DNA of 33,408 nt from IMG/VR virus record IMGVR_UViG_3300022723_000281, positions 1 through 33,408 of that record, one strand, 5' to 3'. The notes under the pieces were generated by a model. That model had not been told where the DNA came from. It ran no database searches and was given only the letters and a program-made list of their open reading frames with translations. Made by a program: the position numbers and the translations under genes. Below are positions 4,234 through 31,984 of the stretch, one piece after another (within the stretch, counting starts at the first letter, position 1; every line of letters starts with the position of its first letter). Origin of the DNA: a virus.

Positions 4234-4493
4234 GCGGCTTTCTTGCTCTTTTTCTTCCCGCTTCGGTCGGCGAGTCTGATCACGGCCGGTTGCGGACCGA
4301 CAGCCAACTTGTGGCTGAACACCCGAGCGTGCAGGTCGATCTCGACGGTCTTGCAGGCAACGTGTCCGGCCTTCGCGATCGTCTCGCCGTCTTCGACCGG
4401 CATGGTCCTGTTCGACACGCCGTCCATCACGTCGATCATCCGATCGTAGATCTTGGACAGCTTGGCCGGGTCGGCAGACAGATGGTTAGACAT
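4230..4493 (-). CDS. Conserved-looking hypothetical phage protein
   Basis: 87 residues starting MSNHLSADPAKLSKIYDRMI, ending in a lysine-rich tail (SGKKKSKKAA). No function known. The start has a strong AAAGGAG site in front of the ATG at 4493, unusually good for this operon, and overlaps by eight bases the broken TnpB-like frame upstream, so it can be translated independently of it. Confidence 0.75.
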   Translation of the reverse strand: MSNHLSADPAKLSKIYDRMIDVMDGVSNRTMPVEDGETIAKAGHVACKTVEIDLHARVFSHKLAVGPQPAVIRLADRSGKKKSKKAA

Positions 4494-5259
4494 GAAGAAT
4501 CTCCTTTTGCTTTTTGACGGATCGTTTTGCGCGCCGCACCGCCTTGCGGGTCGCGACGACGCGGTTGCCGACAGCCGTCTTGGCGTCGGCGCGGCGGCGG
4601 ACTTCGATCGTTCCGCCGGATTCCTCGACTTTGTAGGTGAGCATACCGATGGCGGTCTCGGGCGCCTGCCCGAGCAACGCCCGGTTGAAACTGGCCTTGA
4701 CTTGTGTGGCGGCGCCCCAGTTTCGGGCGTCGCCGCGCCCCGACTTCACATCTGCCGAGATCGACGCCGGCGCCGTAATGGTCAGGTCGTTAAATCGTCG
4801 GCTCAAGTCGGTCGTCCACATGTGGAGGGCTTCCCGCCGTCGGTTCGCGACCCGACGGTGCGCGCGGGCGATCTGCCTGGTTAGAAGACGGTATCGGTAC
4901 GACCCAGTGCGCTTGTTTGCGCGACTCCGTTGGAGCCTCTCTATCGTTTCTTTACTGTCGGCACCGCTAATCGCCGCGAACGTGAACCCCAAAGACCCGC
5001 GTTCACCGGCCGATTTGCCGGCGTCTGCACCGACGCTGACCACTGACCGCACGACACCCAACCCGCGTTCACCGGCCGATTTGCCGGCGTCTGCACCGGA
5101 TGTCTGGTTAACACCTTGCAATTCAGCGGTGATTCGCCCTTCGGAGAAGTAAAAATCCGTCGGGCCGGCCCCGCGTGGGCCGTAAACCGTGGCAAATTTA
5201 TCCACTAAATCGAAATCGACCGCCGCACGGCCGCTCCCCGCCGTCCGCCGGCACGGCAT
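4486..5259 (-). pseudogene. TnpB-like protein, C-terminal part (RuvC region, apparently dead)
   Basis: 257 codons from an internal ATG. VDFDLVDKFATVYG (residues 14-27) aligns by eye with the RuvC-I motif of IS200/IS605 TnpB (GIDLG..FAT). The segment from ERLQRSRANKRTGSYRY to ARAHRRVANRRREALHMWTT matches the TnpB helical region before RuvC-II. Where TnpB has the catalytic EDL, this protein reads DLTITAPASIS, with no Glu. The C-terminal zinc finger and RuvC-III Asp are absent; the end is a basic helix. Two copies of GADAGKSAGERG lie between RuvC-I and the helices. Either decay, or a domesticated RNA- or DNA-binding derivative. Confidence 0.55.
4995..5098. repeat. Two 38-bp direct repeats, 66-bp period
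   Basis: An identical 38-bp sequence occurs at 4995-5032 and 5061-5098. The 66-bp period keeps the frame (22 codons), so the TnpB-like C-terminal part carries GADAGKSAGERG twice; a third GAD follows at the next period. Each copy includes the palindrome-like CCGGCCGATTTGCCGG. Looks like an in-frame tandem duplication. Confidence 0.8.
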
Positions 5260-5728
5260 GTCGACCCCGAACCCTGATGGTCCTGGGCACGCCCTTGATT
5301 CGAAGCCTGCCGTGGGTCGGCCGGCCGTCACTGGCTTCACGGAACTCGACCGCCCATCCGCTCCGATGACGCTTGAACGAAAAGCCTGGATAAAACCGGC
5401 CCGACTTGAACCGCGGGAACCCTGCCCGGTGGCCCATACCCTGCTTGGCGCGGCGAAAGAATGCCTGGAAGGCCCGATCGACCCGCTGGGCGGTCGCCGC
5501 CATGCTGGCCGACGACATGGCCGCGTATTCGGGGTCGTCGGCCCGCAGGGCCGTCAGCTCCTTACACTGGTCGTAATAGGTCAGCGTGCGGCCCTGGCGG
5601 GAATAGGCTTCGATCCGCTGTTGGATGAGCCCGTTGTAAAGGTCGCAGTGCATTCGCCGTTGCCGCTCGAGCGCCGCTGCCTGGACGGCGTTCGGGTACA
5701 GACGGAAATTGCCGTAAGTCCTAATCAT
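5198..5728 (-). pseudogene. TnpB-like protein, N-terminal part
   Basis: 176 codons. The start MIRTYGNFRLYPNAVQAAAL, then CDLYNGLIQQRIEAY, LTYYDQCKELTALR, VDRAFQAFFRRAKQG and GFPRFKSGRFYPGFSF are the standard order of motifs in the N-terminal (REC/WED) half of IS200/IS605 TnpB and its phage relatives. The frame stops at 5198 just where the RuvC domain should begin; that domain continues in another frame from about 5259. Compared with TnpB about 25 residues seem missing at the junction. The ATG overlaps the RecT stop as ATGA, so the gene sits in the operon and not as an insertion with its own ends. Confidence 0.7.
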
Positions 5729-6897
5729 ACCAGGGTCCTGATATCGTCGGCCGGTCTGTCGGCCTTTTTGGCGTCGGCCGCTTCCCGTTCTTTCGCCTCG
5801 GCTTCGTCCCACTGACGGTCGGATTCCTGCTTGGCTTCGTAGGCCCGGGTGTCGGCTTGGTTGTTAAGTTTCTCGATCGTCTCCTGGCGGAACTCGCGGA
5901 GGTCCCCGACGCCCGACGGATGCTCGGCCTCGACCGGCCCGAGCACATGCTCGTTGTTGGCCCAGATGGCGTTGATCGACCGGACGTCGTCCTTCCAGGC
6001 CAGGTCTTCGATCCTGTCCCAAAGCTCGGCGACCCACGCATTGGCGCCGAACTCTCCGATGTCCTCGCCCTCGGCATCGACCAGCATGTACCCGGCAGGG
6101 CCGGCCGATTCGCCCTCGGCGGTTTCCGATTCGCCCTCGGCGGTTTCCGCCGGCTGGTCGTCCGATGCCGTTTCCGGCCCGCTGGTGGCCGCGGCAGCGG
6201 CCCCGTAGGCGGCCCGGTCCGGTTTTTCCACCCTAGCCGGGATACCGTACACGCCGTTCTGGCCCGGCTCGAAGTCGATCGCATCCTCGAGTTCTTCCGC
6301 GGAGTGTTGCAGCCCCAGTAGGACGTCCCCGTAGTTGTCCCGCAGGTTGAACGCGCGGGCGCGATACTTGAGCATCCGTTCCGGGTAGTAACACCACGGG
6401 GTGTCGCCGCCGCTTTTGCCCTTCTTCATCCACAGCCGGGCCCGCACGGCATCCGAGACGGAGAACTCCGTCCGCCTTTCCTTTTCTTCGCCAACCCGCT
6501 TAGTGATGCAGACGGCCTTGAACTCTTTCGAATAATCCATCGAGCCGTCGGCGGGCGCTTCGCCCTCGAATGTCTCGTCGATCGACTCCAACTGGCCCGA
6601 GTTGCGAACGATCGCGAGTTGGAAATCTCCATACCCGGCGTATCGGCCGTTGACGATCATGATGTTGGCGAGGGCGCTGATTGCGGGCACGCCGACCGTG
6701 GCGCCCATCTGGATCGCGCCGAATACCGCGGCGACGTTATCGTCGCTGCCGGGACGACCCGGATAGGACGACGGGACGACCCCAGAGAGGGAGAAATACT
6801 TGGCCATCTGCCAGCATTCCTCGATCGTGGTTGGCACCAACGGCATGATCGGCTGGCCGATCCGGGTGCGGGGCTTGCTAGGCAGGTGTTCGGTCAT
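5725..6897 (-). CDS. recT: RecT-family single-strand annealing protein
   Basis: 390 residues. AAVFGAIQMGATVGVPAISAL (about 56-76), NIMIVNGRYAGYGDFQLAIV, and WCYYPERMLKYRARAFNLRD (about 170-190) are the core signature of RecT-like annealases. Residues about 240-275 are an acidic, repetitive linker, followed by a charged C-terminal region that ends in a coiled coil. It would anneal single strands during phage recombination together with the SSB encoded downstream. No partner exonuclease of RecE or lambda Exo type is obvious here. The start overlaps the upstream stop as ATGA. Confidence 0.88.
   Translation of the reverse strand: MTEHLPSKPRTRIGQPIMPLVPTTIEECWQMAKYFSLSGVVPSSYPGRPGSDDNVAAVFGAIQMGATVGVPAISALANIMIVNGRYAGYGDFQLAIVRNSGQLESIDETFEGEAPADGSMDYSKEFKAVCITKRVGEEKERRTEFSVSDAVRARLWMKKGKSGGDTPWCYYPERMLKYRARAFNLRDNYGDVLLGLQHSAEELEDAIDFEPGQNGVYGIPARVEKPDRAAYGAAAAATSGPETASDDQPAETAEGESETAEGESAGPAGYMLVDAEGEDIGEFGANAWVAELWDRIEDLAWKDDVRSINAIWANNEHVLGPVEAEHPSGVGDLREFRQETIEKLNNQADTRAYEAKQESDRQWDEAEAKEREAADAKKADRPADDIRTLV
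6107..6148. repeat. Two tandem 21-bp repeats in the recT linker
   Basis: A 21-bp unit is repeated exactly at 6107-6127 and 6128-6148, giving the protein sequence ETAEGES twice in the acidic linker of the RecT-like protein. In frame, so probably a tolerated slippage event. Confidence 0.85.
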
Positions 6898-10632: not shown

Positions 10633-10835
10633 CCCCTGCGGCCTGCACTGGCGATTTTCTCGCCGGCGTCGTCGTCGGCACGGCGGCGGTTCTGACGACC
10701 ATGACGGTGGCGTTCGCATTTCAGCGCAATCGCCCCGGCAATCTCGCCGATCGATTTCCATCCCATACGGATGAGTCTGGCGCCCCCGAGGGCTACCGTC
10801 ACCCGGAAGGTCGGGGCGGGGGTTCCGCCCGATGA
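10629..10835 (+). CDS. Small single-span membrane protein
   Basis: 68 residues. Residues about 10-32 (FLAGVVVGTAAVLTTMTVAF) form one hydrophobic segment, followed by a polar, proline- and glycine-rich tail. Function unknown; small membrane proteins at this place in phage early operons are sometimes superinfection-exclusion or toxin-like products. Coupled to both neighbours by ATGA overlaps. Confidence 0.6.
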   Translation: MTPAACTGDFLAGVVVGTAAVLTTMTVAFAFQRNRPGNLADRFPSHTDESGAPEGYRHPEGRGGGSAR

Positions 10836-11329
10836 CCCGGGCCCTCATCATGTCCTACGGCGACCGCATCCACGGTTCGCTCAAGCACGCCGAAGCCAAA
10901 CTGATCGCGGATGTCGGCGGGGTTGTCGAGGCTGCCCATGGCTGCCGGCTTGGCAAGTCCCGCCTGTCCGACTGCGCCAACCCCCATCGGGACGACGACC
11001 ACCTGCCGGTCGACGTCGTGCGGTCGCTCGAGCGGCAAAGCCACCGGCCTGTCGTTACTGCCCATTTGGCCCATGCGGCGGGGTTTTTGCTTGTGCGGAT
11101 CGGCCGGCGCGACGCCGCCGCGGCCGATTGGCAGAAGCATAAGGACCGTCTGACAAAGGAATGCTGTGAGGCGGTCGCCATGGCGGCAGAGGCGGTAGCG
11201 GACGGCGAGATCACCAAGCGCGAGGCCGGCCAGCTCGTCAAGGAACTCGATGACGCCCTGCTGGCGACGATGGCCCTACGCCGGCGTCTGCTCGATGTGA
11301 TCGAACCCGAGCGCGAGGCGGCGGCATGA
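10832..11329 (+). CDS. CII-like regulatory protein
   Basis: 165 residues. The N-terminal part (YGDRIHGSLKHAEAKLIADV, GCRLGKSRLSDCANPHRDDD and LPVDVVRSLERQ) has the shape of the phage CII/regulatory HTH family found after Cro in many proteobacterial phages. The C-terminal 60 residues are helical and charged. In that family the protein is a transcriptional activator or regulator of the lysogeny decision. The family match is by eye and moderate; the position supports it. Confidence 0.6.
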   Translation: MTRALIMSYGDRIHGSLKHAEAKLIADVGGVVEAAHGCRLGKSRLSDCANPHRDDDHLPVDVVRSLERQSHRPVVTAHLAHAAGFLLVRIGRRDAAAADWQKHKDRLTKECCEAVAMAAEAVADGEITKREAGQLVKELDDALLATMALRRRLLDVIEPEREAAA

Positions 11330-11463
11330 CGCGCAACGACCTGATTGCGATCTTTGGCTGCGGCCAGATGCCCGACTGGGACGACATCATGATCCCGTGG
11401 CCGTCGTATTGGGCGCGTGACCCGCAGCGGCTCGTGTTTACCGTCGCGGCGAGGGTCGGTTGA
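11326..11463 (+). CDS. 45-residue small protein
   Basis: A 45-codon ORF starting MTRNDLIAIFGCGQMPDWDD, rich in tryptophan (three) and proline. ATG overlaps the upstream stop as ATGA, the normal junction in this operon. Composition looks coding. It is the last clear protein gene before the long structured region. Confidence 0.6.
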   Translation: MTRNDLIAIFGCGQMPDWDDIMIPWPSYWARDPQRLVFTVAARVG

Positions 11464-12222
11464 TGCGCCTTAAGGCACCAATGTTACTGGGGTCGTTCGT
11501 GCGGGAGCTGATGTCGATCGCTGCCATTCCGTCGTCCAATACAGGATCGCCGCATCGGCAAGGCCATCGCAACAACCCTTATCGGCAAAAGAAATACAGT
11601 GGTCGCCGTCTCCAAACGTGTGCGCGTGTCAATGGCGTCGGCTGCCCACCCGCTGTGAACCTCGCTCGACCCCATGTGCATAAGACCCGGCTGGTCGCCG
11701 GGAAGGTGCCGCTGTGATGCTGTGCCGGGCGACCTCGCTGCTATCAGCCGCCGTTCCTACGGGGGCGGGGTATGCCGACCGAAAGGAGGCATCTGGCGGG
11801 GCCGTCCGGCAGAGCTTCATGGAACCCCCTGCGAAAGCGCGCGAGAGCAAGGGCGGCCCATCCATAGGTGCTGACCGATGATTGGATGGGACCAAGCGTC
11901 TGCGCTTGACGACCGCGTGAGTAGGCTACCCGTAAGAGCGGCTGCGGGCGAAACGTCAGCGATGGGCGTGACAGCCGGGAGAGACCGGCACCCAATGGAG
12001 CATACCGAGGCGGTGGCGTGGAGTAGCGCGCCACGCAACAGGGTGTTGAGGGTTCGGGCTTTGGCAACCCGAGTAAGGCCGAAGCGTATTCCCTGTGCCA
12101 CCGCCGGATTTTGCGCCCGGCCCGCCTCGGTATGTTCCGGTCTTACGTTTAGGCGTGGGAATCACGCTCCTGTTGGGCGTTTCCCCCCGGAACTCGACGG
12201 GCGCTTTGGCGTCCGGCTTTTT
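11464..12222 (+). ncRNA. Large structured noncoding RNA candidate
   Basis: About 760 bases without a convincing protein gene but with nested complementarity. Helices read from the sequence: 11488-11495 with 11667-11674; 11501-11505 with 11649-11653; 11506-11515 with 11634-11643 (10 bp, three G-U pairs); 11688-11699 with 11728-11750 in two parts; 11857-11863 with 11884-11890; 11893-11898 with 11903-11908; 11974-11978 with 11985-11989; 12001-12008 with 12127-12134; 12009-12017 with 12097-12105; 12038-12043 with 12091-12096; 12054-12058 with 12068-12072; 12135-12140 with 12187-12192. GCGAAAGC and GCGAGAGC carry GNRA loops. G-U pairs fit the plus strand. The 3' end is a terminator-like hairpin with five T. 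Boundaries are estimates; no known RNA family was matched. Confidence 0.6.
12198..12222 (+). terminator. Intrinsic terminator of the structured RNA
   Basis: CGGGCGC (12198-12204) pairs with GCGTCCG (12209-12215) across a TTTG loop; one pair is G-U in plus-strand RNA. It is followed by GC and TTTTT (12218-12222). Rightward genes beyond would need read-through or another promoter. Confidence 0.6.
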
Positions 12223-12230
12223 ATTCAGTT

Positions 12231-12485
12231 GCGCGGCGTCGGCTTCGCATTATTGCGAAACCCTCTCCCTGACCACACCCGACTTAGTGGCCGACGTCGC
12301 GCTCTTGTTGCGCGGCGCCGCAGGCCGACGACCCCCGGCCCGGGCGGTTTGATCCCCTTGGCTGCCCAGCGGCGCCGTGCGCCCGATCGCCTTCCGCGAC
12401 ACTCCATGACCGGTGGGCCGGCGCATCGACACGGTCGGATGCGCGCCGTACAGGCGCGTAAACGGCGTTCGCGGAAGGGCAGCCC
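12231..12485 (+). ncRNA. Second structured RNA block or 5' leader
   Basis: 12231-12243 pairs with 12290-12302 (13 bp, one G-U). Inside lie a perfect hairpin (12244-12249 with 12254-12259, loop TTAT) and a short one (12273-12276 with 12287-12290). Further on, 12360-12367 pairs with 12477-12484 and 12392-12399 with 12469-12476, enclosing hairpins 12421-12427 with 12438-12444 and 12443-12447 with 12453-12457 (the last two share bases and may alternate). It ends about 50 bases before the next gene, so it may be its leader or the 3' domain of the larger RNA. Confidence 0.5.
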
Positions 12486-12538
12486 ATTTAAGCGCCGAAT
12501 CCAACCGGCCGCCGGCATCCCAACACAGGAGACCACCT

Positions 12539-13487: not shown

Positions 13488-14356
13488 AAAGCCAACACGT
13501 TGTTTTCGAGCTGAACGGGGCCTGGATCGTCGCCCATTGGGACACCGAGCGGCCAGAGTGGCTGCGGGTGATTGGCCGGTTTACCGACCATACGCTGGCC
13601 CGACAGTACGCCGCATGGCGGGACGCGCCGAAGGACGGCGTCACGATCGCCGTCGGCAGCTACGACACTAAGGTCATCGGGGACCGGGCGATCGCAGTTC
13701 CCGCCGAGCCGGAGCCCGACTTGCCGGTGGCCGAGCCCGACGAGCCCGAGCCGCCCGAAGGGCCGGAGCCCGATGGGCCCGAGTCTGACGAAGATGAACC
13801 CGACGACCCCCCATGGGACCGAGAAGACCTCTCACCCCGCCAGCTTCAGGCGCTCGAATATTTCGAACGCTTGGCCGATAAGTCCGAGCTGCTGCCGGCA
13901 ACCGCGACCGAAGCATGTCGGAACGCCGGTTTTCCGACCGGTTCTCTTTCGCAACTTATTTCGACCCTTGAAGAACGTGGGTTCCTCACGCGGCTTAAGA
14001 ACGAAGCCACCTGGGCGATCGAACTGGCCGATGGTCGAGTCATAAGGGCCGTCGAGGCGGCCGGGCCACAAAAGGGCCGCCGGGTTGGACGGCCTGCACA
14101 ACCGATGGGTGACATACCTCATCCGACCGACGCCGACGATGTCCCGGTCGACCTGGCGAACGGCGATTTCGAAGCTGTTTTGGATTTCCTCACCGAACAC
14201 GGGTTTGAGGTTAAGCGGACCTTCCAGGGATACGAAATGCCAGATTTCGCCGACGGCGTTTTGACGGCCAAGCAGGTCGTCCAAGTCGCCAACAACGAGC
14301 GCCGGCGGCTCGACCCGCCGTTGCCCCTGTATCGAATCGTGGAGCCTCCTGCATGA
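13484..14356 (+). CDS. Hypothetical protein with acidic linker and winged helix
   Basis: 290 residues in three parts. Residues 1-70 (VVFELNGAWIVAHWDTERPE, then TIAVGSYDTK) form a small alpha/beta domain. Residues about 72-110 are a proline-glutamate-aspartate-rich linker. Residues about 113-165 (LSPRQLQALEYFERL, then FPTGSLSQLISTLEERGFLT) resemble a winged helix, and the last 100 residues are another unknown domain. Probably nucleic-acid binding; no specific role visible. ATGA overlaps with both neighbours. Confidence 0.7.
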   Translation: MKSQHVVFELNGAWIVAHWDTERPEWLRVIGRFTDHTLARQYAAWRDAPKDGVTIAVGSYDTKVIGDRAIAVPAEPEPDLPVAEPDEPEPPEGPEPDGPESDEDEPDDPPWDREDLSPRQLQALEYFERLADKSELLPATATEACRNAGFPTGSLSQLISTLEERGFLTRLKNEATWAIELADGRVIRAVEAAGPQKGRRVGRPAQPMGDIPHPTDADDVPVDLANGDFEAVLDFLTEHGFEVKRTFQGYEMPDFADGVLTAKQVVQVANNERRRLDPPLPLYRIVEPPA

Positions 14357-14790
14357 GATGGAAAGCTGTCATCTGCGCGTGCGCCGACACCTACGGGGTG
14401 ACGGTCGACGCCATGTTGGCCGAGACGCACCAGCGGATCGTCGTCGAGGCCCGGTGGGCCGCCATGGTCGTCATGCGGCACTCACTCGGGTACACGCTGC
14501 ACCAGATTGCCCGGCGACTGCACCGGGACCATACGACGGTCATCTACGGGCTAAGGCAGGTCGGACTGGGCAAGGTCCGCAATCCCAAGACCTTTGCCGC
14601 CGCCCTCGCCGCGTCTCGGGGCGCTTTGGTGGGTCATTCCAAATATCTGCCCTACGGAATCCAGCCTCACCAGATGCACGTCCAGGTCGCCTACCACCAT
14701 GGGACAGCCAGCTTGTTTCCCGCCCTCGGGGTCCATACCCGGGTTCGGTACCTTATGCCGGACCGACCGAGCCAGAAAGTGAGCCTATGA
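14353..14790 (+). CDS. DnaA-domain-IV-like replication protein
   Basis: 145 residues. IVVEARWAAMVVMRHSLGYT followed by LHQIARRLHRDHTTVIYGLR (about 29-68) matches the C-terminal DNA-binding domain of DnaA, whose signature is the RDHTTV loop. The AAA+ ATPase part of DnaA is absent. Phages with such proteins may use them to bind DnaA-box-like sequences at their own origin or to interfere with host initiation. It lies upstream of DnaB and the DUF1376 protein, consistent with a replication role. Confidence 0.8.
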   Translation: MRWKAVICACADTYGVTVDAMLAETHQRIVVEARWAAMVVMRHSLGYTLHQIARRLHRDHTTVIYGLRQVGLGKVRNPKTFAAALAASRGALVGHSKYLPYGIQPHQMHVQVAYHHGTASLFPALGVHTRVRYLMPDRPSQKVSL

Positions 14791-22785: not shown

Positions 22786-23021
22786 CGGGTGATCCCGCAC
22801 GCCTTGTCGTGGTGGGCGAAGTCGTACCCGGCGCCGTAGCACTGCCGGATCTTGTCCTGCTGGTAGCGGCGATCGCTATCGAGGCCAAGCAACGTCAGAA
22901 CGGCGGGACCGGTCAGCCGCGGCCGTCCGTTTTCGCGGTCCTGATAGCCGGCGACGAACGCCCGCTGGGCCGCATCCGCCAGCTCGTTACGGCTGGCGGT
23001 TTCGAGAGATTTGTCTGCCAT
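22779..23021 (-). CDS. Hypothetical protein
   Basis: 80 residues starting MADKSLETASRNELADAAQR. Helical N-terminus, then KIRQCYGAGYDFAHHDKACG. No family recognised. It has its own GGAG site; the 5' context CTACCACGGAG is repeated in front of the gene starting at 23473, which suggests that the two leaders share an origin. Confidence 0.6.
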   Translation of the reverse strand: MADKSLETASRNELADAAQRAFVAGYQDRENGRPRLTGPAVLTLLGLDSDRRYQQDKIRQCYGAGYDFAHHDKACGITRW

Positions 23022-23062
23022 GGTGATCTCCGTGGTAGGAATAGTGTGATAGCAAACATTTA

Positions 23063-23127
23063 GCGGGCGAAGGTCGGGCTGGCGGTACCCCCGTTGGCCG
23101 GCGGTTCAACTCCGCCAGCCCGCTCCA
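23063..23127 (+). other. tRNA-Gly-like sequence with strong inverted repeat
   Basis: Starts GCGGGCG (23063-23069) and ends with a T-arm GGCGG TTCAACT CCGCC (23100-23116), AGCCCGC, T and CCA (23125-23127), the ends of a glycine tRNA. A D-arm-like part follows the 5' end, but the anticodon arm is too short and the total is 65 bases. The same stretch holds a perfect 11-bp inverted repeat (23075-23085 with 23112-23122). Opposite strand to the neighbouring genes. Possibly a decayed tRNA, a tRNA mimic, or chance. Confidence 0.3.
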
Positions 23128-23140
23128 CCCATTAGGCGGC

Positions 23141-23473
23141 CTACGTGCAGAACGGCGTGACGATGATGACGTACTCGCGGCCGTTGATGTCGACGGTCCG
23201 CCACGGCCCGTCGCCGCCGATCGCGTCGTAGACTTGGTCGATGTTGTCATCGAACAGCGAGTGGGCCGCCCTCTGTACGCCGTCGTCGTGTGCCGTAACC
23301 GCGTAGGCTTCGACATGGTGATGGACCCCGCCAAACATCAGGGTCGCCAGTAGGCTGGCCGTCGGGTCGTCGTCAGGCCCCACGTGTTCGAACTCGAACA
23401 CTTCGAGGGATATGTTCGGCCCAGGGTCTTGAATCTGCCTGGTGCCGTCGTGCACGATGATGTCGGTCATCAT
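23141..23473 (-). CDS. Hypothetical protein
   Basis: 110 residues starting MMTDIIVHDGTRQIQDPGPN. Acidic, with a His-rich segment (GGVHHHVEAYAVTAHDDG) and the C-terminus TVDINGREYVIIVTPF. No family recognised. Good GGAGG site before the ATG at 23473. Second gene of the accessory leftward unit. Confidence 0.6.
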   Translation of the reverse strand: MMTDIIVHDGTRQIQDPGPNISLEVFEFEHVGPDDDPTASLLATLMFGGVHHHVEAYAVTAHDDGVQRAAHSLFDDNIDQVYDAIGGDGPWRTVDINGREYVIIVTPFCT

Positions 23474-24566: not shown

Positions 24567-25304
24567 GTGCCCTACGTGCTGCTGTCCGATCGGCTGTTTG
24601 AGGGCCACACTCCGGTCATCGAATACACTAGCGGTCGCAAGGTGCCCCATTACTGCTATGCGAGGACGGCGAAATCGTCCCGTCGGGCCCTCTATAACCG
24701 GCCGGCGCCGTTTCGGTACAACCGCATTAGGCCCGAGCGCCTGACGAAGAAATCCAAGGTCGCGATCGTCGAGACCGACGGGCCGCGGATGAACTTTCTC
24801 AAGGACGTCTACCTGGCGAAGTCCATCCAGCACTCGATCGGCGCGGCCAACTTTCTCGTCTACGTCGACGACATGCTGGTCGGCGGGTTGATCTACTCGC
24901 TGCCCAAATACGGGGCCTACGGGCCCGGGGCGATTTACCTGTTGTCGGACGTAACTTTGACCCGTGAAGGGAAGCTGTCGAAGCTGGTTGCCATGTTGGC
25001 CACGAGCCAACAGATCCTCGACGTGGTCGGCCGCAAGATCGTGAACCGGCTCGACTTCGTCGTCACGACTGCCCGCACCCACAAGCCGGTCAGCATGAAG
25101 TACCGGGGCATCTACCGCCTGCTGAGCCGCCGACCGTCCGAGGACAAGTCCGAAGGGAACGTGATCCAATATGGTGCGGAAAGCCGTCCCGAAACGCCGC
25201 AAGAAATCTACGCCGACTGGTGGCGACGCTACGGAAAAGAATCCGTCGGCCAATATCGCGACCGAGTTGCAGCGGGTCGACCCGAAGACCCTAAAGCTGC
25301 TTGA
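24567..25304 (+). CDS. Possible GNAT/Mom-like DNA-modification protein, 5' end unclear
   Basis: 245 residues from a GTG. The middle part has VYLAKSIQHSIGAANFLVYV, DDMLVGGLIYSLPK, LSKLVAML, and the ending FVVTTARTHKPVSMKYRGIY; the strand-helix order and closing S-M-K-Y-R-G resemble phage GNAT-fold proteins of the Mu Mom type, which modify adenines. That assignment is tentative. Protein-like sequence extends upstream in frame to about 24471 (DENTEWQQPDYEVYDPND) without a usable start, so the N-terminus is lost or begins unconventionally. It overlaps the ParB-like gene by 134 bases. Confidence 0.6.
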   Translation: MPYVLLSDRLFEGHTPVIEYTSGRKVPHYCYARTAKSSRRALYNRPAPFRYNRIRPERLTKKSKVAIVETDGPRMNFLKDVYLAKSIQHSIGAANFLVYVDDMLVGGLIYSLPKYGAYGPGAIYLLSDVTLTREGKLSKLVAMLATSQQILDVVGRKIVNRLDFVVTTARTHKPVSMKYRGIYRLLSRRPSEDKSEGNVIQYGAESRPETPQEIYADWWRRYGKESVGQYRDRVAAGRPEDPKAA

Positions 25305-25998
25305 CGTCAACGCCCGGTACATGACGGGGCCGCAAATGGCCCGGCTAGTCGAGAACGTGAAGCGTGACGGTCGGCTGACGAGTGTCCCTCTGGCCTATCG
25401 GCACGAAGACGGTTCGGTCGAGGTCCTGTCGGGCAACCATCGGGTCAAGGCCGCTGTGGATGCCGGGCTCGAGCAGATCGACGTCATGGTCATCACGACT
25501 CCGCTGGACGAGCGCCGGCGGGTCGCGATCCAGCTGAGCCACAACGCGATCGCCGGGCAGGACGACCCGAATGTCCTCTACGAGCTCTACGCCGGACTCG
25601 ACCTGTCGTACAAAGCCTACAGCGGGTTGACCGACGACGACTTTGCCGGGCTGGCCGAGGTCGACATAAGCGGCCTTTCGATCGGCAGCCTTCGGTATCA
25701 GGAGCTTTACTTCTGGGCGCTGCCCGAGGATGCCGAGGTATTCCGGCAGGTTTTGGTCGAGTGCGAGAAGCTGGCCAAGAGCCACACTGCCTACATCCTG
25801 CCACTGCGGGACTTCGACAAACTATTCGACGCGATCATCGGCGCGAAGCGTCTGGTGAACGTCCACAATGGCGCGATCGGCCTTCGGGTGATGGCCGACT
25901 TGGCGCTCGAGCGACTGGATCAGTTGCAAAAGGAAAAGGCCGATGGCCCGAACCGGGAAGTTCAAAGTAAAGCAGGTCGAGGAAGCCCTAAGGGCTAG
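25171..25998 (+). CDS. ParB-like protein of the packaging region
   Basis: 275 residues. VDPKTLKLLDVNARYMTGPQ followed by MARLVENVKRDGRLTSVPLA and VEVLSGNHRVKAAVDAG (about 36-98) is a ParB/Srx N-terminal fold in which the GERRxRA box is GNHRVKAA. The C-terminal half is not a normal ParB HTH. Such proteins occur next to methyltransferase, Mom-like or terminase genes in phages; here it lies between the possible GNAT protein and the terminase small subunit. Role unknown, perhaps CTP- or DNA-dependent. Confidence 0.75.
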   Translation: MVRKAVPKRRKKSTPTGGDATEKNPSANIATELQRVDPKTLKLLDVNARYMTGPQMARLVENVKRDGRLTSVPLAYRHEDGSVEVLSGNHRVKAAVDAGLEQIDVMVITTPLDERRRVAIQLSHNAIAGQDDPNVLYELYAGLDLSYKAYSGLTDDDFAGLAEVDISGLSIGSLRYQELYFWALPEDAEVFRQVLVECEKLAKSHTAYILPLRDFDKLFDAIIGAKRLVNVHNGAIGLRVMADLALERLDQLQKEKADGPNREVQSKAGRGSPKG

Positions 25999-31147: not shown

Positions 31148-31984
31148 ATGCCCTTACAGATGATTCGTGAAAACCTCGATGGGCTCGATGAGCCGATCGC
31201 CGCCCTCTACACCGAAACCGAAGATGGCAACTTCGTCCTCGACGTCACCGGGGTAGACGACCACCCCGAGGTCGGCGGACTGAAAAGCGCCCTCGAACGG
31301 CAGAAAGATACCAACAAGAAGCTCCGCGAGAAGGCGGAAAAGCTCGAACGGCAGGTCGGCGATCTGCCGACCGATTTCGACGCCGAGAAATGGGCCGAAT
31401 ACAAGGCCCGGATCGAAAAGCTCGACGACGACCTCGACGACGATGCCGACAAGGACAAGCTGCAGAAACTGCGCGAGCAGCTTGACGCCAAGTGGCAGGC
31501 CAAGCTCGACAAGCAGAAGACCGAGTACGAGGACAAAATCGCCGAACTCACCGGTGGTCGCGATCACTACCGCGAGAGCCTCCATCGAACCGTCAAGCGG
31601 GACGAACTGACCCGGGCCCTCGTCAAGCACAATGTCCGTAAGGAACTGATGGACGCTGCGCTCGACCGGCATGTCAACAAGGTCAAGGTGGTCGAAGACG
31701 AAGGCGAGTTGAAAGCGGTCGTCGAGGCCGACGGGGTCGAGCAGACCGTCGCCGAATACATCGAAGGCTGGACTCTCACCGACGAGGGCAAAGCCATGAT
31801 CGTCGCGCCAAAGAGCCACGGCAGTGGCGACAAGGGCGGCGGCGGGCCCGGTGGCGAGTTCAAGAACCCCTGGTCGGACAAGCATCGCAACCTGACCGAA
31901 CAGGCGAAGATCGTCCGAGAGGACTACGCCAAGGCGTGCCGCCTTGCGCGGGAGGCCGGCAAACCAGAACCGCGCCGGCCCTAA
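31148..31984 (+). CDS. Scaffold-like protein (DUF6651 type)
   Basis: 278 residues starting MPLQMIRENLDGLDEPIAAL. Residues 48-145 are a long charged coiled coil (ERQKDTNKKLREKAEKLERQ, DDDLDDDADKDKLQKLREQL). The C-terminus has GSGDKGGGGPGG and a helical, basic tail. This build and the place just before the major capsid gene fit a phage scaffolding protein that guides prohead assembly. Good GGAG site before the ATG. Confidence 0.82.
   Translation: MPLQMIRENLDGLDEPIAALYTETEDGNFVLDVTGVDDHPEVGGLKSALERQKDTNKKLREKAEKLERQVGDLPTDFDAEKWAEYKARIEKLDDDLDDDADKDKLQKLREQLDAKWQAKLDKQKTEYEDKIAELTGGRDHYRESLHRTVKRDELTRALVKHNVRKELMDAALDRHVNKVKVVEDEGELKAVVEADGVEQTVAEYIEGWTLTDEGKAMIVAPKSHGSGDKGGGGPGGEFKNPWSDKHRNLTEQAKIVREDYAKACRLAREAGKPEPRRP

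Follow-up and report, generated by a model that had tools for sequence, protein, structure and literature searches.

The window, that is, the complete IMG/VR virus record IMGVR_UViG_3300022723_000281 with a length of 33,408 nt, carries the gene set of a temperate phage comprising an integrase, an HTH/S24 repressor, a CII-like regulator, RecT, a terminase and a portal gene. As outlined in Table 1, the gene of the CII-like regulator is followed by one small gene, which ends at 11463, and then by an untranslated, leader-like stretch of 1075 bases. Phage codon usage gives positive log-odds as far as about 11460 and once more from 12539 onwards; between these positions they stay at or below about zero in all frames, the sole exception being a small antisense bump around 12180. 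An 84-amino-acid ORF (11463-11717) overlaps the stop codon of the upstream gene (TGATG) and exhibits neither a coding signal in its codon usage nor a Pfam match. The initial annotation had described a long noncoding stretch without a convincing protein at 11464-12222; both points were borne out, the gap being even longer and extending to 12538.

Two further loci of the window were recorded. On the minus strand at 4486-5812, two ORFs in different frames contain parts of IS605 OrfB/TnpB (HTH_OrfB_IS605, OrfB_IS605) and a repeated ADAGKSAGERG stretch; this pair is probably a degraded TnpB gene. On the plus strand, the phage gene at 14353-14790 encodes a DnaA C-terminal DNA-binding domain (PF08299, E 1.3e-13), and its product is perhaps an origin-binding protein.

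Table 1. Features of the untranslated stretch and its flanks (positions in the window).
Feature	Position	Strand	Evidence or remarks
CII-like regulator gene (Phage_CP76)	10832-11329	+	Pfam PF06892, E 2.8e-6; upstream of the stretch
Untranslated, leader-like stretch, early right operon	11464-12538	+	phage codon usage in no frame
Folded segment upstream of the conserved element	11690-11905	+	z -3.45, 0/300 shuffles as stable
GAGUAGGC box, alphaproteobacterial type	11919-11926	+	common to L150, L162, L199, L081, L171
Putative hairpin P0, CCCG 11929-11932 / CGGG 11945-11948	11929-11948	+	by eye and from folds of L081, L199, L150, L094
Helix P1, ACGUC 11953-11957 / GGCGU 11965-11969	11953-11969	+	exact complements, co-variants
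GACA linker	11970-11973	+	nearly invariant in alignment A2
Hairpin P2, GCCGG [GAGAGA] CCGGC	11974-11989	+	consensus G-NNN-G[GARAGA]C-NNN-C; inner-pair covariation
Long branched hairpin domain 3' of the conserved element	11998-12140	+	z -4.5, 0/300 shuffles as stable
Intrinsic-terminator-like hairpin and T tract, between element and next gene	12198-12225	+	hairpin 12198-12215, then GCTTTTTATT
Further folded untranslated segment before the next gene	12222-12538	+	z -3.33, 0/300 shuffles as stable
First gene after the untranslated stretch, 128 aa	12539-12925	+	coding signal

Folding of the untranslated stretch

In comparison with dinucleotide shuffles the plus strand of 11464-12222 folds more stably than chance (z -3.46, 0/100 shuffles as stable), the signal of the minus strand being weaker (z -1.88). 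This overall signal originates from the folded segment upstream of the conserved element and from the branched domain 3' of it (Table 1). The plus strand of 11464-11690, by comparison, folds at chance (z +0.41), and 11905-11996 gave z -0.06. The claim of a structured plus-strand RNA is thus borne out by the fold z-scores for parts of the stretch only. Relatives were found neither for 11690-11905 nor for 11998-12140.

Regarding the individual helices of the initial annotation, the one pairing 11506-11515 with 11634-11643 is present with its ten pairs, three of them G-U. It does not exceed chance, however, because 11 of 60 shuffles of 11464-11690 contain at least as many 10-bp helices as the native sequence (3 versus a shuffle mean of 1.4). 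The stems formed by 12001-12017 and 12097-12134, in contrast, are real and strong, and 12038-12043 with 12091-12096 constitutes a short helix of the minimum-energy fold. The terminal hairpin with its T run was likewise found; since three terminator-like sites occur in 2.4 kb against a shuffle mean of 1.7, similar sites are near chance and the evidence for a terminator is weak. Local folding is most extreme elsewhere in the window, namely on the minus strand at 22951-23150 (z -5.5) and 31351-31550 (z -5.2), inside ORFs or antisense to ORFs.

Comparison with known RNA families

A cmscan of the whole window against Rfam 15 yielded no match at gathering score. For 11300-12400 the search was extended to E = 10 and returned sub-threshold matches only, the best being suhB/mmgR on the terminator with 23.8 bits against a cut-off of 41. 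The GOLLD and ROOL covariance models gave no match at gathering score, nor at E <= 10 in 11300-12400. Neither the window nor the element copies from other phages described below matched a self-cleaving ribozyme model of Rfam, and these copies matched no other Rfam family. The suggestion that the untranslated structured RNA lies outside the known families is therefore supported. Furthermore, the motif strings of the element were absent from the phage papers of the open-access library that was searched, although an earlier description elsewhere is possible. The Pas sRNAs of E. coli prophages were considered and rejected as a different RNA from the late region.

Search for relatives

BLASTN of the region against phages and plasmids gave nothing meaningful, and the flanking proteins have no close relatives in viral contigs. 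Exact patterns taken from other parts of the region (AACCCGAGTAAGGCCGAAG; GTGAGTAGGCTACCCGTAAGAG) found no match. Relatives of TerL led to host genomes, but no RNA was present there. The TerL gene of one relative, IMGVR_UViG_3300045996_002949 (L003:1-1341), carries an apparent mini-intein before its C-terminal ADEVRY motif (Pfam Intein_splicing, E 1.3e-5, under the family cut-off). BLAST against 385 alphaproteobacterial genomes revealed one genome in which AGC.ATGG(C)GCGTGACAGCCGGGAGAGACCGGCAMCC occurs twice, directly before the ATG of a phage-like gene; a match to 12173-12217 from the same search (L082) lay in an unrelated context and was set aside.

In IMG/VR phage DNA the last hairpin was searched with the pattern GCGTGACAGNNNGGAGAGACNNNC, which matched in at least 120 phage stretches, about two matches being expected by chance if the collection comprises 60 Gb, a size that we estimated. 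Among the matches listed, the closest relatives of the untranslated stretch (L150, L199, L162, L171 and L081) align only over about 11896-12012, with 73-77% identity. Outside an element of about 75 nt at 11919-11993, neither 50,697 phage records nor the fetched loci yielded a convincing relative. The window itself holds no second copy, the next best hit (11.6 bits, E 0.11) lying inside the gene at 25171-25998. A looser pattern matched 6 of 399 Pseudomonadota genomes (reversed control: 0 of 399), at least some of these matches adjoining phage-like genes by inspection, and none of 300 Bacillota genomes.

Anatomy and covariation of the element

The element is a structured RNA whose helices co-vary; it is conserved, specific to one strand and associated with phages, and it represents a widespread phage RNA family that is missing from Rfam. 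From 5' to 3' on the plus strand it consists of GAGUAGGC, hairpin P0, the ACGUC...GGCGU helix, GACA and the hairpin G-NNN-G[GAGAGA]C-NNN-C. The first two parts are additions in the alphaproteobacterial copies; at P0 the relatives show a hexaloop, for example GGCGGA or CGCGGA. In the 115 non-redundant copies listed the last hairpin reads G-NNN-G[GARAGA]C-NNN-C, preceded by GGCGU and GACA and, further upstream, by the partner ACGYC.

An exact complement of the 3' strand of P1 occurs within 75 nt upstream in 67 of these 115 copies, compared with 11.4 in shuffles (maximum 20 in 200 runs); as the P1 partner was absent from the search pattern, this count is a fair test of P1. In seven copies ACACC/GGUGU replaces ACGCC/GGCGU. 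Within an alignment of 72 copies, which had been chosen for having a P1 partner, 97.6% of the cells pair and 87 double-sided changes were counted (shuffle mean 24.5). The covariation score of this alignment amounts to 0.375, in comparison with 0.112 for shuffles and at most 0.065 for slid versions. As the search patterns had dictated the loop of P2 together with its outer and top G-C pairs, only the three inner pairs provide a test of this hairpin; they co-vary with 15-41 double changes each. The window copy scores 51.8 bits (E 2.5e-11) against model R1, of whose training set it is a part. Covariation across at least ten diverged sequences, which the initial annotation had named as a decisive test for the whole stretch, was hence found for the element and only there; the element itself had not been singled out.

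Genomic position of the copies

In 12 of 13 annotated records the downstream neighbour of the copy lies on the same strand, the exception being Rhodobacter RcCWillis. In the lambdoid phages mEp390 and Klebsiella P7641 the element separates the repressor gene from the left early operon's first gene, which corresponds to the nutL/putL position. Pseudomonas Medea1 and Cruim01 as well as Stenotrophomonas BUCT708 likewise have a copy where an early operon starts behind the repressor, and no N gene is annotated in the displayed stretches of these five phages. Synechococcus MinM2 has a copy at the head of an operon, Cronobacter CS01 before the terminase, ctIqW946 before the DNA polymerase gene and ct7L0027 shortly upstream of the major capsid gene. 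In MD18, Pokken and Mwe-JY26 copies lie within or immediately before tRNA arrays.

Among the IMG/VR copies listed, 15 lie at most 400 nt from a tRNA, whereas random placement within these loci gives 4.5 (as many in 0 of 1000 randomisations); all 15 are on the tRNA strand. The end of the copy precedes a start codon with a Shine-Dalgarno sequence by 20-29 nt in 21 listed copies (2.5 expected) and a tRNA by 6-15 nt in five. In several phages copies occur in tandem or precede single genes and tRNAs. The nearest gene downstream of the window copy is 545 nt away, and the distances in the window, mEp390 and Medea1 are roughly 250-550 nt. Terminators downstream of the copies were not enriched (29/104 on the sense strand versus 30/104 on the antisense strand).

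Two related observations were made in other phages. The leader of BUCT708 (L211:2300-3190), with a length of about 700 nt, contains several element-like hairpins in series (GTGACGCCAGGGAAAGACCGG, CTGACAGCCCGGAAAGACGGGC, CTGACAGCCGGGAAAGACCGGC). A leader module of about 90 nt ending in GTGTGACGCC-TCGG-AAGAGA-CGAGG was found in L230:4795-5475, L231, L232:4735-5250 and L204:3718-3815; judged by model E-values of 0.016-0.054 in L204, L215 and L217, it is possibly a distant relative of the element. This module has matches in 1565 of 5426 complete E. coli genomes; in those inspected it is flanked by a LexA-family repressor and yfdP or precedes a phage tRNA-Arg by 70 nt.

Discussion

A probable role of the element is to assist the transcription or processing of genes or tRNAs of the phage that carries it. 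With not quite even confidence we propose a new phage-wide class of cis-acting RNAs in phages of Proteobacteria and cyanobacteria that controls the host RNA polymerase or cuts the phages' own transcripts. With the same reserve we take this class to be unrelated in sequence to put, nut or the catalogued ribozymes and to be placed in leaders, before genes and before tRNAs.

More specifically, the element may be a leader RNA that works in cis, targets the transcribing polymerase and resembles HK022 put in its action without being a member of the put family, a reading that we favour tentatively. The stretch 11464-12538 would then be an untranslated leader inside the early rightward operon with the element as its functional core. 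The nascent element RNA would fold as it emerges and, in cis, influence the host's transcription complex or its bound factors. RNA polymerase could thereby read through pauses and Rho-dependent termination of untranslated RNA such as leaders and tRNA arrays, and also through terminators such as the one at 12198-12225, so that the element would fulfil the function of lambda nut or HK022 put with no sequence in common. The head of early operons is the place of nut in lambda and of put in HK022, and tRNA arrays and long leaders, being untranslated, are exposed to Rho. A polymerase-sustaining role fits the copies that head early operons and those that adjoin tRNA arrays; the covariation controls, the copy upstream of the terminase and the enrichment beside tRNAs, always on the tRNA strand, are counted as further support. 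That a small RNA is able to sustain polymerase follows from the precedent of HK022 put. This RNA, with a length of about 70 nt, attaches to the zinc-binding domain of the polymerase beta' subunit, needs no phage protein and suppresses intrinsic as well as Rho-dependent termination (PMC9378689). Against this reading stand the lack of downstream terminator enrichment, the tandem, per-gene and per-tRNA copies, although one processive antiterminator per operon should suffice, the failure of the model and relaxed patterns to find a copy in HK022 itself, and the 545 nt between the window copy and the next gene.

The tandem copies and their tight placement before genes and tRNAs suit equally the main rival, an RNA-processing signal, perhaps a self-cleaving ribozyme or a nuclease site, that would cut polycistronic phage RNA directly upstream of a gene or tRNA and leave a defined 5' end. 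Small ribozymes typically combine short helices with numerous invariant bases that stay unpaired, and the HDV-like theta ribozymes beside phage tRNAs offer a precedent (PMC10879173). Yet close spacing is also predicted by compact phage genomes, the longer distances in the window, mEp390 and Medea1 do not fit, and Rfam, ribozymes included, gave no match; we regard processing as rather unlikely. Tandem copies and a location before Shine-Dalgarno sequences would also be in line with a protein-binding leader hairpin, in which a phage or host protein recognises P2 and the GARAGA loop and controls translation, stability or antitermination; the 5-bp hairpin with its conserved purine hexaloop and freely varying inner pairs is a further point in favour. 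Lambda N, for example, binds boxB. BoxB sequences are phage-specific, however, whereas the same loop occurs in phages of alpha- and gammaproteobacteria and of cyanobacteria, so the partner would have to be a host protein; moreover, tRNA leaders are untranslated and no conserved boxA-like sequence was seen. This possibility appears to us unlikely.

The suggestion of the initial annotation that the whole 759 nt form one large ornate RNA like GOLLD or ROOL draws on the overall plus-strand z-score and the terminator-like end, but was largely refuted and is now very improbable. The first 230 nt are at chance, relatives among the matches listed cover only about 11896-12012, folded sequence without coding signal extends beyond the terminator as far as 12538, and the conserved part is a module of about 75 nt that recurs alone in other phages. 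Least credible is a mere by-product of a decaying gene or of GC-rich intergenic sequence: the out-of-pattern ORF overlapping the upstream stop codon could hint at decay, but the core is conserved with covariation across unrelated phages, which refutes this origin for 11919-11993.

Lambda-type phages need antitermination, and to our knowledge it is unexplained how the long untranslated leaders and tRNA arrays of most phages escape termination. Should the element act on polymerase, it would constitute a second and far commoner family of antiterminators that need no protein; should it cut RNA, it would represent a natural ribozyme or processing signal of a new kind. Since it spans phages of very different hosts, including E. 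coli, Pseudomonas and Rhodobacter, this is testable directly in laboratory strains.

Comparison with known systems

Like GOLLD and ROOL, the stretch specifies a long noncoding RNA that is structured and stems from phage or prophage DNA, but it differs from them in its conserved part, a short independent module, and in matching no Rfam model. Theta (HDV-like) ribozymes are, like the element, small phage RNAs adjoining tRNA genes; their cleavage site lies at the tRNA 3' end (PMC10879173), whereas the element is located 5' of tRNAs and genes and matches no Rfam ribozyme. The lambda nut site resembles the element as a short hairpin with a purine-rich loop in an early leader. Unlike at nut, no conserved boxA-like column was seen beside the hairpin of the element, its loop is the same across unrelated phages, and the displayed left operons of the lambdoid phages (mEp390, P7641) are annotated without an N gene. 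A sequence relationship to HK022 putL/putR was rejected, as neither the model nor a relaxed pattern detected a copy in HK022. In form and place, though, put is similar: both are small two-stem leader RNAs of early operons on the transcribed strand, with two adjacent stem-loops in about 70 nt for put and P1 and P2 (plus P0 in the alphaproteobacterial type) in about 50-75 nt for the element. The lambdoid copies occupy the putL position, and the leader position is shared by mEp390, P7641, Medea1, Cruim01, BUCT708 and the window. Unlike put, the element also occurs in late operons and tRNA arrays, with several copies per phage.
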